Assembly (NCBI RefSeq): GCF_003688405.1
Contig: NZ_REFC01000012.1
Span: 372,001-436,000 of the forward strand
DNA from: Ulvibacter antarcticus
GTDB taxonomy: Bacteria; Bacteroidota; Bacteroidia; Flavobacteriales; Flavobacteriaceae
Direction: 5' to 3'
DNA length: 64,000 nt
Shown: positions 20,055 through 23,715 of the stretch, one piece after another
Layout of the letters: every line of letters starts with the position of its first letter
Position numbering within the stretch: position 1 is the first letter of the stretch
Made by a program: the position numbers and the translations under genes
Notes under the pieces: model-generated
Told to the model about the DNA's origin: nothing
Databases searched by the model: none
Seen by the model: only the letters and a program-made list of their open reading frames with translations

Positions 20055-20534
20055 CTAAATCTCCTTAAATATAGAGTGCATCAATCTTGTCTTGTCGTTG
20101 ATACTTTCCTCGAGAGAAATCATTGTTTCAGTTCTGGTTACGCCTTCAATATCATCTATATCGTAGATAATATCTTTGGCATGTCCCGTATCTCTTGCTC
20201 TAATCTTACAGAAAATATTAAATTTCCCAGTAGTGACGTGAGCTACAGTTACGTGTGGTATTTCGATTAATCGTTCCAAAACAAACTGTGTTTGAGACGT
20301 TTTATGAAGAAATACTCCCACGTATGCAATGAAGGAATATCCTAATTTGTTATAATCCAATTTTAATGAAGAACCGGTGATGATGTTGGCTTCTTCCATT
20401 TTCTTTACTCTAACATGAACCGTTCCAGCGGAGATTTGAAGTTTTTTTGCGATATCCGTAAAAGGAGTTCTAGTGTTCTCGATTAACATATCGAGGATTT
20501 GATGATCTGTGTCGTCTAACTTGAATTTTGCCAT
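20055..20534 (-). CDS. Lrp/AsnC family transcriptional regulator
   Basis: 159 aa, normal length. Residues 1-60 are a winged helix-turn-helix (LDDTDHQILDMLIENTRTPFTDIAKKL, then SAGTVHVRVKKM as recognition helix). Residues 65-150 are the RAM (regulation of amino-acid metabolism) effector domain, alpha/beta with GVFLHK, HVTVAHVTTGKFNIFCKIRA and GVTRTETMISLEES. Such proteins form octamers and respond to amino acids. The nearby proline dehydrogenase and alanine dehydrogenase are possible but unproven targets. Confidence 0.93.
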   Translation of the reverse strand: MAKFKLDDTDHQILDMLIENTRTPFTDIAKKLQISAGTVHVRVKKMEEANIITGSSLKLDYNKLGYSFIAYVGVFLHKTSQTQFVLERLIEIPHVTVAHVTTGKFNIFCKIRARDTGHAKDIIYDIDDIEGVTRTETMISLEESINDKTRLMHSIFKEI

Positions 20535-20590: not shown

Positions 20591-21742
20591 TCATTTTAAC
20601 GGAAAAATAACGAAAGAAGTATCACTTTCTTTAACAATTGTAGTGACATTTTGTCCAAGATCAATATTTTTATGTGAATTTATTAAAATACGCTCACCTT
20701 TTAAATCAATCTCTTTGTGACCTTTAAGTGAAGTATTTACTGTTTTACCTTCAATCACAGCATGAAACTTAATCTTATTTTTCTCCAGCACTTCGGAAAA
20801 ATGAATAACAATATCTACGGGCTTCCCATTCTCTACTAGACCAACGTTTCGAAGAATCAAATCTCTGAAATTATCTTCGTTTTGAGGTATTTTGAAGTAA
20901 TCTTTATAGTCAATTTCGTCTTCTGAAGCGTTTGTAATCCCAAATAACTCCAAATAAGCATAAAAAATAAATTCCCTTGTAACTTCCCTATTGTAGTCGT
21001 TTTCATAATGTCCAGCTTCAAAAAGGATGGTGGGGACATTTAGCATTTGGAAGGTGTCACCAATGCAATTTTGATTAAAGCCATCGTCATATCGTCCTAT
21101 TTGCTTCGGAATTAATCGCTGTAATCGTTGATTCATTCTAACAATATGCTCCATTGCCGTTACTCTAGAAGCTGTCACTGATCTTTCTGCATCGGCTGAA
21201 GGCGCTAAGAATGAAACCGTGGCCGATTTTCCTGTATCGACACCATATATTGAACGCTGATCATGTAGATTGAGACAAATATCAGGCTTTATTTCTTCGA
21301 ACACCTTCCTTATTACCTTACTCTCTTTCTGACTTAAATCCTTAGCGTCTCTGTTAAGATCAATTTTGTTTGAATTAACACGAGTGTATAATTTTGCCCC
21401 GTCCGGGTTTAAAATTGGAATTATGAAGAAGGTGTATTCATTTAAAAATGCCTGAATCTCTTTCTGAAAAAATTCTTTTTGATCTATAAACTTCAAAAAA
21501 TCAAAAATTGCCTTAGTGGTTGTACTTTCATTTCCGTGCATTTGTGACCAACCCAAAACTCTTTTTTTTCCATTCCCTATTTTAATAAGTGGAATATTTT
21601 TTCCCAATTCCGAAGTTCCTGCAACAGAAATCTCAAACGAATTTTTGTAAGAATCCAGGATAGGAAGTATGTGATTCAGGGTAATATATCTACCACTTAT
21701 TCTTGCTTCAAAATAGGTGGTATACCAGCTTACAATATTCAT
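20591..21742 (-). CDS. M14 family zinc carboxypeptidase
   Basis: 383 aa from the ATG at 21742. A TTG start seven codons earlier would lie upstream of the predicted transcription start (-7 element TACCTTTG at 21768-21761), so I reject it. M14 zinc ligands: His and Glu in MHGNEST and His in NLHDQR; substrate Arg and Asn region in NPDGAKLYTRVNSNKIDLNRDA; catalytic Glu in TILFEAGHYEND. About 90 C-terminal residues form an extra beta domain. No signal peptide, so it is probably cytoplasmic, acting on small peptides or peptidoglycan fragments. It faces the XRE regulator gene across an operator-rich region. Confidence 0.9.
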   Translation of the reverse strand: MNIVSWYTTYFEARISGRYITLNHILPILDSYKNSFEISVAGTSELGKNIPLIKIGNGKKRVLGWSQMHGNESTTTKAIFDFLKFIDQKEFFQKEIQAFLNEYTFFIIPILNPDGAKLYTRVNSNKIDLNRDAKDLSQKESKVIRKVFEEIKPDICLNLHDQRSIYGVDTGKSATVSFLAPSADAERSVTASRVTAMEHIVRMNQRLQRLIPKQIGRYDDGFNQNCIGDTFQMLNVPTILFEAGHYENDYNREVTREFIFYAYLELFGITNASEDEIDYKDYFKIPQNEDNFRDLILRNVGLVENGKPVDIVIHFSEVLEKNKIKFHAVIEGKTVNTSLKGHKEIDLKGERILINSHKNIDLGQNVTTIVKESDTSFVIFPLK

Positions 21743-21760
21743 AGTTAGAATGTCTTGTGA

Positions 21761-21830
21761 CAAAGGTAAACATTGCTTTGTTTACAAATGTAAACAAGAG
21801 ATATGTCACATTTTGTGTGGTATTGTAAAC
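21761..21830 (-). promoter_or_regulatory. Carboxypeptidase promoter with GTTTAC/GTAAAC operator sites
   Basis: Minus-strand -7 TACCTTTG (21768-21761) and -33 TTG (21787-21785) with a 16-base spacer. A palindrome GTTTAC-AAAT-GTAAAC (21780-21795) covers the -33, a GTAAAC half-site (21766-21771) overlaps the -7, and another lies at 21825-21830. The layout suggests repression of the carboxypeptidase by the divergent XRE protein. Confidence 0.65.
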
Positions 21831-21973
21831 AAAACGAAGCACTTTGGATCTAGGCTATTTATATTTTTTAACTAAATTATAAAAATATGATTTAATTATA
21901 TTATTTTCAGCATTTTAACTAACTCAATATAAAGTTATAATTTAAAAATAATTGATACTTTGGAAAGAAATAA

Positions 21974-22043
21974 TTGTACTTCAGGAAGTAATAATTTACA
22001 TTTGTAACCGTTATCCTTAAAACAACCGTTTACAATGGTAAAC
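21974..22043 (+). promoter_or_regulatory. XRE regulator promoter with two more GTTTAC-N4-GTAAAC-type sites
   Basis: TTG (21974-21976), a 20-base spacer and TACATTTG (21997-22004) fit the consensus. An imperfect site ATTTAC-N4-GTAACC (21994-22009) covers the -7 element, and a perfect GTTTAC-AATG-GTAAAC (22028-22043) spans the start codon at 22035. This is the arrangement expected for autorepression. Confidence 0.7.
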
Positions 22044-22421
22044 ACTTCAGATTTTTCAAAAAGACTGCAAAAGGTACTCGATTTTTACGGGGTATCTGCT
22101 ACTGCTTTTTCGGAAGAAATTGACTTTAATCGTTCTACGATTTCCCACCTCCTTTCTGGCAGAAATAAGCCTAGTTTAGAATTCGTAATGAAGGTGCTTC
22201 AGAAATATCCCGAGGTAGAATTATATTGGTTGCTAAATGGCAAAGGCAGTTTCCCTTCAGAAAAAAAAATCACTTCTGCCCCACTTCAGAAATTAGATAA
22301 AAAAGAAATTATCGATATACCATCTAATTTTTCCGAAGTAAAAACAACGACTTCCGAAAAACAAATAGAGCGAATCGTAGTTTTCTACAGAGATGGAAGC
22401 TTTAAAGCGTACGAAAACTAA
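22035..22421 (+). CDS. XRE-family helix-turn-helix regulator
   Basis: 128 aa. Residues 5-65 form a Cro/CI-type HTH: FSKRLQKVLDFYGVSATAFSEEI, then the recognition segment NRSTISHLLSGRNKPSLEFV. Residues 66-95 are a polar linker and the last 20 residues (IERIVVFYRDGSFKAYEN) a short C-terminal beta-hairpin that could dimerise the protein. The gene has its own two-part promoter, and its start codon lies inside a perfect dyad, so autoregulation is likely. It is followed by a lipoprotein gene, terC and a terB-like gene on the same strand. Confidence 0.88.
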   Translation: MVNTSDFSKRLQKVLDFYGVSATAFSEEIDFNRSTISHLLSGRNKPSLEFVMKVLQKYPEVELYWLLNGKGSFPSEKKITSAPLQKLDKKEIIDIPSNFSEVKTTTSEKQIERIVVFYRDGSFKAYEN

Positions 22422-22463: not shown

Positions 22464-22862
22464 ATGCGATTTCCCCTTATCCTTTTACTAATTTTATCTC
22501 TAAGTAGCTGTTATAACGCAGAACGAAGCTGTGATGACTTTCGTACCGGCAGCTTCGAGTTTGAAACTATGGTAGGAACAGAGATTCAAACAACCACATT
22601 TGTACGAAAAGATTCCATAGAAATTGATTATTTTAGAGGGAAAGCGGACACTTCTTATGTTCGATGGATTAATGATTGTGAGTGGATTTCTGTAAAGAAG
22701 AATCCTGTTAACATGGCGGAGGAACAGGCCATTCACTTCAAAATACTGAGTACAACTGGTGATAGTTATGACTTTCAGTACAAAAAAGTGATTAAAAAAG
22801 AAAATGAGAAAATGACCGTGTTTCGTGGAACAGCCAGGAAAACAACAGATAATTTCGAATAA
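22464..22862 (+). CDS. Small lipoprotein of unknown function
   Basis: 132 aa. Lipoprotein signal MRFPLILLLILSLSSC, with the lipobox Cys at 16, then a mixed beta-rich domain (GSFEFET, TTFVRKDSIEIDYF, DTSYVRWINDCEWISV, FKILSTTGDSYDFQYKKV). Two further Cys (in RSCDDF and NDCEW) may form a disulfide. Relatives have, as I recall, been misnamed DNA topoisomerase IV in databases; nothing here supports that. It starts 42 bases after the XRE gene and ends 31 bases before terC, so it is probably in the same operon. Confidence 0.82.
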   Translation: MRFPLILLLILSLSSCYNAERSCDDFRTGSFEFETMVGTEIQTTTFVRKDSIEIDYFRGKADTSYVRWINDCEWISVKKNPVNMAEEQAIHFKILSTTGDSYDFQYKKVIKKENEKMTVFRGTARKTTDNFE

Positions 22863-22893: not shown

Positions 22894-23715
22894 ATGTTTG
22901 AAATTTTAACCTCACCTGACGCCTTAGTTGCACTTTTGACCCTTACTTTTTTAGAAATTATTCTAGGGATCGACAATATTATCTTTATTTCATTGGCGGC
23001 AAGTAAACTTCCGGCACAACATCAGAAAAAAGCTATAAATATAGGGCTGTTCCTGGCAATGCTTATCCGTATTATTTTGCTGTTCGGTATTTCGTGGTTA
23101 GTCGCGATGGAAGCACCATTTTGGATTATAGATCTTTCCTGGATGAGCGCAGGGATTAGCGGACAAGGAATTATATTGTTTTTAGGAGGTATCTTTTTGT
23201 TATATAAAAGTACGAGTGAAATTCATGAAAAAGTAGAAGATAAAGGTCATGACGAAAGAGAAGTGATCAAAAAACGATCTACTACTCTTACCCAAGCGGT
23301 TATTCAAATATGCCTGATCAATATTGTCTTCTCTTTCGATTCCATACTCACAGCTGTGGGAATGACGAATGGCATAGGAAACACCCCTACAGACGCTTTA
23401 ATTATCATGATCATTGCTGTAATGATTTCTGTAATTATAATGATGATTTTTGCAGCACCAGTAGGTCGATTTGTTAATGAACATCCAACAGTACAACTGC
23501 TCGGATTGGCTTTTTTAATATTAATAGGTTTTATGTTAATTACAGAAGCCGCACATTTAGTACATTTAGAGGTATTTGGATCTGAAATAGGAGCCATTCC
23601 TAAAGGTTATTTGTACTTTACCATTGCATTTTCACTATTTATTGAATTTATCAACATGCGATACCGAAAACGAACCTCATCAATTGTCACTACAAGACCA
23701 AAGGATGAAGAATAA
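22894..23715 (+). CDS. TerC family integral membrane protein
   Basis: 273 aa with seven or so membrane segments. The family signature is present: LEIILGIDNIIFISL near residue 20-34 and the paired acidic motif NIVFSFDSILTAVGMT in the middle, whose Asp residues are thought to carry metal. TerC/YjbE proteins export or load divalent metals such as Mn2+ onto secreted proteins; the name comes from tellurite resistance plasmids. A charged loop (EIHEKVEDKGHDEREVIKKR) joins the halves. A TerB-like gene follows 23 bases later. Confidence 0.93.
   Translation: MFEILTSPDALVALLTLTFLEIILGIDNIIFISLAASKLPAQHQKKAINIGLFLAMLIRIILLFGISWLVAMEAPFWIIDLSWMSAGISGQGIILFLGGIFLLYKSTSEIHEKVEDKGHDEREVIKKRSTTLTQAVIQICLINIVFSFDSILTAVGMTNGIGNTPTDALIIMIIAVMISVIIMMIFAAPVGRFVNEHPTVQLLGLAFLILIGFMLITEAAHLVHLEVFGSEIGAIPKGYLYFTIAFSLFIEFINMRYRKRTSSIVTTRPKDEE

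Follow-up and report, generated by a model that had tools for sequence, protein, structure and literature searches.

Predicted operator clusters between a conserved XRE regulator gene and a divergent M14 carboxypeptidase gene keep helical phase across the Flavobacteriaceae

Results and discussion

The intergenic region between the divergent genes for a small XRE regulator and an M14 carboxypeptidase carries two clusters of dyad sites which, although more than 200 bp apart, appear to have been kept on the same face of the DNA helix by evolution, suggesting looping or wrapping of the intervening DNA. This helical phasing is the main new result of our analysis; like the middle element and the coding constraint at the regulator start codon described below, it was absent from an earlier reading of the locus made without database searches (the sequence-only reading), and it was not what we initially sought. 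On balance we favour the interpretation that the region forms a family-wide nucleoprotein switch, in which one small repressor, both operator clusters and a middle element unique to the locus come together in a single looped or wrapped complex, with insertions and deletions beyond a few bases tolerated only as whole turns, some 30 times on the tree. The features of the locus in Ulvibacter antarcticus are listed below, with positions in the window, i.e. the whole 64,000-nt stretch of DNA that was analysed.

20055-20534: Lrp/AsnC regulator gene, directly beyond the M14 gene
20591-21742, minus strand: M14 zinc carboxypeptidase, 383 aa, ATG at 21742; Pfam PF00246 at 49.1 bits (cut-off 21.6), no other annotated domain
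21756-21771, unstranded: O1, TGTGACAAAGGTAAAC; defined by the 79-genome alignment, left half degenerate here; holds the M14 -7 box TACCTTTG (minus strand, 21768-21761); fixed 24 bp from O2
21780-21795, unstranded: O2, GTTTACAAATGTAAAC, perfect dyad, lying over -33 of the M14 promoter
21815-21830, unstranded: O3, GTGTGGTATTGTAAAC; right half intact in this genome, both halves in many relatives; 33-35 bp from O2
21891-21947, plus strand: middle element, TTTAA...TTTTCAG...TTTAA...ATATAAAGT...TTTAA; AT-rich, about 57 bp, specific to this locus and helically phased with both O2 and O4
21994-22009, unstranded: O4, ATTTACATTTGTAACC; holds the XRE -7 box TACATTTG (21997-22004)
22028-22043, unstranded: O5, GTTTACAATGGTAAAC, perfect; straddles the XRE start codon at 22035, with DNA-level constraint on codons 2-3
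22035-22421, plus strand: XRE/HTH_3 regulator, 128 aa; HTH_19 and HTH_3 above cut-off; model pLDDT 85; orthologue in 371 of 397 family genomes
22464-22862, plus strand: small lipoprotein-like gene, 132 aa, 42 bp downstream of XRE; synteny in 19 of 20 long loci; no Pfam family
22894-23715, plus strand: TerC-family membrane protein; Pfam PF03741 at 157 bits; adjoins the lipoprotein gene in only some relatives

Conserved dyads in the M14-XRE intergenic region

The sequence-only reading had described three GTTTAC-N4-GTAAAC dyads with extra half-sites at 21766 and 21825, and on rechecking these coordinates were exact. The sites are real but were undercounted, as an alignment of 79 genomes resolves five operators, and the two supposed half-sites turn out to be conserved right halves, belonging to O1 and O3, both of which form complete dyads in most relatives. 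The spacing is 24 bp from O1 to O2, 33-35 bp from O2 to O3 and usually 34-36 bp from O4 to O5. The genome scan for the perfect pattern that had been proposed was carried out, and returned two matches in the whole 3.84-Mb genome, both at the M14-XRE locus, with the reversed control pattern giving none. Within the 64-kb window, ten matches with up to two mismatches were found vs 3.4 expected, and both perfect ones lie at M14-XRE.

Conservation beside orthologous genes, which the same reading had set as a check, was borne out, with the divergent M14-XRE arrangement and its sites kept family-wide and partly order-wide. Across 89 M14-XRE intergenic regions we counted 74 perfect, 141 one-mismatch and 175 two-mismatch occurrences of TTTACAnnTGTAAA, against 0.05, 2.25 and 20, respectively, expected from dinucleotide shuffles; a site with no more than one mismatch was likewise present in 71 of 72 loci of a separate named set, which partly overlaps the first. 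The use of one locus per species inflates the simple p-values, as does shared ancestry, the tree counts given below addressing kinship for spacing only. A chance origin of the sites is ruled out by the shuffles, the genome-wide counts and their conservation. A search of the region for RNA elements gave no Rfam match. Elsewhere in the order, the XRE relative of other families has usually retained a site at the start of its gene or close to it, whether or not M14 is a neighbour, and beyond the order XRE matches are fewer and the sites weak or absent.

The sequence TAnnTTTG is the flavobacterial -7 box (PMC9723704). In the 79-genome alignment it is nearly invariant at O1 and O4, pointing toward M14 and XRE, respectively; O1 and O4 are therefore fused with the predicted -7 boxes of the M14 and XRE promoters. 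The middle two bases vary freely at O2 but are fixed as TT (along the transcript) at O4. By consensus, then, the sequence-only reading appears to have placed its dyads correctly at promoters and at the regulator start, with TAnnTTTG at 21997-22004 and 21768-21761 (minus strand) and O5 over the XRE ATG. Codon usage provides a further indication at O5: codon 3 of XRE is AAC in 84 of 88 genes vs 198 of 653 (30 %) elsewhere in those genes (p = 4e-34), and at codon 2, GTA accounts for 42 of 45 (33 % elsewhere) and ATA for 32 of 34 (24 % elsewhere). As judged by genome comparison, the coding part of O5 (codons 2-3) is held at the DNA level.

That the dyads are simply promoter and translation-start elements (TAnnTTTG and start-codon context), and not regulator sites, seems to us scarcely credible. 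O1 and O4 do contain -7 boxes, and A at -3 is known to favour translation in Flavobacterium johnsoniae, where A is also preferred at -6 (PMC6847099). However, O2 and O3 are kept as dyads although no required promoter box lies at their centre, and synonymous choice in codons 2-3 is fixed; the TTT at -6 to -4 opposes the base preferred at -6, so that O5 is not accounted for by start context. This explanation is also contradicted by the loss of the sites together with XRE, described below.

The XRE protein and co-loss of sites with its gene

An orthologue of XRE was found in 371 of 397 Flavobacteriaceae genomes, representing 228 of 237 genera and mostly as one strong match per genome (141 of 149 in a first, smaller draw of the family). 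The protein has an XRE/HTH_3 (Cro-CI type) domain, with Pfam matches to HTH_19 (31.7 bits, cut-off 30.2) and HTH_3 (27.9 bits, cut-off 23), and its predicted structure consists of an N-terminal five-helix HTH, a disordered linker and a conserved C-terminal beta-hairpin (IxxIVxFYxDGxFKxY), which may mediate contacts. Residues R33, S37, H38, R43, N44, P46 and S47, within the predicted recognition helix and following it, do not vary among 75 orthologues, which would be in keeping with an unchanging operator. The only solved chain returned by a sequence-profile search was 3bs3 (E 2.7e-5), a putative DNA-binding protein that differs in having 76 aa and matching the HTH part only; solved domains nearest to the HTH fold include 434 Cro, 434 repressor, SinR, ImmR and HigA.

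We then considered which protein the sites belong to. Upstream of M14, a site with at most one mismatch was found in 85 of 89 genomes with XRE and in none of 12 that lack XRE and keep M14, the latter drawn from about nine genera (Fisher test without correction for kinship, p = 1.5e-12). The M14 and lipoprotein genes now face each other in nine of these 12, XRE and operators both being gone. Taken with the site counts and the codon constraint at O5, genome comparison makes a very strong case for the predicted link between the sites and the XRE protein. In locus L229 (genome G194, genus g127), an apparent C-terminal hairpin remnant of XRE, recognized by eye, lies beside M14, with the HTH and the operators gone.

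Another protein, e.g. the neighbouring Lrp/AsnC regulator, might in principle bind O1-O5, and its gene does adjoin M14 on the far side in all the long loci examined, but we judge this very improbable: the XRE-less genomes retain Lrp next to M14 and have nevertheless lost the sites, and in other families XRE genes without an M14 neighbour keep a site at their start. The Lrp/AsnC protein itself shows 71-92 % identity across the family genomes looked at, with the same position in all long loci.

Helical phasing of the two operator clusters

Measured between centres in 128 genomes, the O2-O4 distance takes values of 202, 213, 223.5 or ~234 bp, each within about 1 bp, with almost none between. In 122 of the 128 it lies no more than 2 bp from a 10.5-bp grid; four distances are out of phase and count against the phasing. 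Length changes were reconstructed on an M14+XRE tree by the fewest-change method, giving 57 changes: 27 measured 1-3 bp and 30 measured 9-21 bp, 29 of the latter being near whole turns, and no change of 4-8 bp was inferred. Comparison of the 58 closest pairs on separate branches gave a similar picture: 41 differ by 0-3 bp, none by 4-8 bp, 12 by 9-12 bp, three by 13-18 bp and two by 21 bp. Furthermore, in 50 held-out genomes, selected with the same filters and with the prediction fixed beforehand, 45 distances fell in the named bins, 49 were no more than 2 bp off phase and none was in antiphase.

As a control interval we used the distance from the XRE stop to the lipoprotein start, which has a broad distribution without such gaps; this control is imperfect because start-codon choice adds noise. 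The distance from O2 to the M14 start is uninformative as a spacing control, since it is itself nearly constant. Genome comparison alone, corrected for the tree and replicated in held-out genomes, therefore finds the two operator clusters in the helical phase that a looping repressor requires.

The middle element

By alignment and profile, an element some 90-145 bp upstream of the XRE start is kept in nearly all genomes compared. When its profile was used to search the whole U. antarcticus genome, the best match was this locus (E 1.6e-5; next 0.04), and the element's own locus was also the best genome match in three further genomes (G063, G001 and G723); the element is therefore specific to the M14-XRE circuit. 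In two genomes from other families (G150 and G151) the profile matched just upstream of XRE. Its TA and TTTAA steps recur every ~8-12 bp, a periodicity that would suit a bent or wrapped segment, and the neighbouring Lrp/AsnC protein could be a candidate binder.

The two intervals flanking the middle element are each quantized separately, O2-middle at 107, 118 or 129 bp and middle-O4 at 94 or 105 bp, with almost nothing between. This bears on an alternative that we consider unlikely although it merits attention, namely that XRE represses the two promoters separately, as two independent short-range switches, and that the spacing has some other cause, such as a middle element that has to be in register with just one promoter. 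The sites at each end would suffice to cover the promoter there, and the distance of the middle element is indeed steadier to XRE (sd 7.6) than to M14 (sd 12.2). Against this, both sub-intervals and the total O2-O4 distance are quantized, and so both ends are in register. That all three elements keep register over 200 bp implies that they come together in a single complex.

A model for the switch

We regard it as likely that XRE is a dedicated local autorepressor that closes its own promoter and that of M14 through a looped or wrapped complex. An XRE dimer would bind the 14-16-bp dyads; bound at O1 and O2 it would lie over the M14 promoter at -7 and -33, and at O4 and O5 over its own -7 box and its own start codon. 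From these positions both promoters would be shut through occlusion of RNA polymerase, giving negative autoregulation and co-repression of M14, and probably also of the co-transcribed lipoprotein gene, until repression is released by some signal. The likeliest reason for the register would be that the repressors bound at the two ends come together in a single looped or wrapped complex, with the bend at the middle element. Such a complex could be a loop that the repressors close from either end, or DNA wrapped around a bending protein that sits on the middle element, and the phasing is also compatible with a wrapped complex without XRE-XRE contacts.

The repression of itself and of M14 by XRE, as predicted by the sequence-only reading, thus appears supported by the conserved sites and by their loss with XRE. 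Counting against a repressor model are the degenerate left halves of O1 and O3 in U. antarcticus, the weak M14-side sites in one family of the order (f5) and the opposite answers given by two loci in which M14 no longer adjoins XRE, L071 having kept a perfect site beside M14 and L078 not. In the latter (genome G025), M14 lies ~1.6 kb from XRE, with O2/O3-type sites near XRE and a weak site only at M14; the O2/O3-type sites having stayed by XRE, another gene may now be their target. Some XRE proteins activate transcription, and O2 and O3 do lie upstream of the M14 -7 box, so that XRE might be an activator or dual regulator aiding RNA polymerase at one promoter, with O3 or O2 as the activator site. 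We think this improbable, however, as O1 and O4 on the -7 boxes and O5 on the start codon occupy positions suited to blocking and not to assisting.

The regulon envisaged earlier was too wide. Exact 16-mers in 149 genomes are almost wholly at the M14-XRE locus, and the few elsewhere, where checked, are mostly within open frames; a broad XRE regulon was therefore rejected. With exact sites nearly confined to one locus, the system is therefore a local switch. The other perfect 14-mers in U. antarcticus fall mostly within coding regions, apart from two that may lie near promoters; perfect copies of TTTACAnnTGTAAA at G000:C3:530951 (L126) and G000:C6:50607 (L127) lie near possible gene starts and could be extra targets or chance.

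Several known systems invite comparison. Phage repressors of the 434/lambda type (HTH_3) and regulators of the SinR/ImmR type share with XRE the HTH fold and, as predicted here, autoregulation and ~14-bp dyad operators clustered over divergent promoters. Unlike them, XRE is chromosomal, single copy and near-universal in the family, has a carboxypeptidase as its partner gene, and carries a beta-hairpin tail in place of a dimerization or sensor domain; only HTH families were found in it, with no S24 peptidase (cleavage) domain of the phage type and a short hairpin as its C-terminus. HigA/HipB antitoxins and restriction controller (C) proteins are small XRE autorepressors with a similar HTH, and HipB also has a beta tail, but the XRE locus is without a toxin or restriction gene: across 20 genomes no HigA-type toxin gene adjoins XRE, its neighbours being M14, the lipoprotein gene and TerC. 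A toxin-antitoxin or defence role was also considered and rejected, PADLOC giving weak HTH matches only. The layout resembles the GalR/HU and AraC loops, in which two operator groups 110-210 bp apart are likewise in a required phase; in gal, a special element lies between the two operator groups. In contrast to GalR and AraC, XRE is of an unrelated protein family, and the phase here comes from comparison of natural genomes alone.

Helical phasing has classically been shown by engineered insertions in a few Escherichia coli promoters, and the present locus offers a natural record of selection on helical phase over more than 100 species. In the open-licence literature we found no description of a flavobacterial XRE regulator of this kind, of a looped operator in Bacteroidetes or of the peptidase. 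One of the most conserved and apparently undescribed regulators of the Flavobacteriaceae thus gains a predicted operator, layout and targets, and a core peptidase gene of this major family of sea and soil bacteria appears to be subject to dedicated control.

Neighbouring genes and minor observations

The order Lrp-M14 and divergent XRE is kept in all 20 long loci (20 genomes), with the lipoprotein gene next in 19. The lipoprotein-like gene is probably co-transcribed with XRE and the TerC gene is a possible further operon member, by which route XRE may possibly control both. As the lipoprotein-TerC genes persist in XRE-less genomes, they do not need XRE; the lipoprotein-like gene in particular is conserved and usually retained where XRE has been lost.

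In the M14 protein the HGNE and NLHD zinc-ligand motifs and FEAGH are invariant or nearly so among 19 orthologues, with H69, E72, H160 and E242 invariant, and the predicted fold matches carboxypeptidases, identifying it as an M14 zinc carboxypeptidase. Identity as the murein-tripeptide amidase MpaA was considered and rejected, the NCBIfam equivalog scoring 21.7 bits vs a cut-off of 157. Inspection of the N-terminus revealed no evident signal peptide, and the enzyme therefore probably acts in the cytoplasm.

Dyads resembling TTTACAGTTGTAAA at G000:C3:1456, 1831 and 2212 (L124) repeat every ~375-380 bp; the first at least lies within one long open frame, and the whole is apparently repetitive coding sequence, not regulatory. 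Finally, several family genomes contain a second, longer M14 relative (~470-520 aa) elsewhere (L118-L120, L395-L399).
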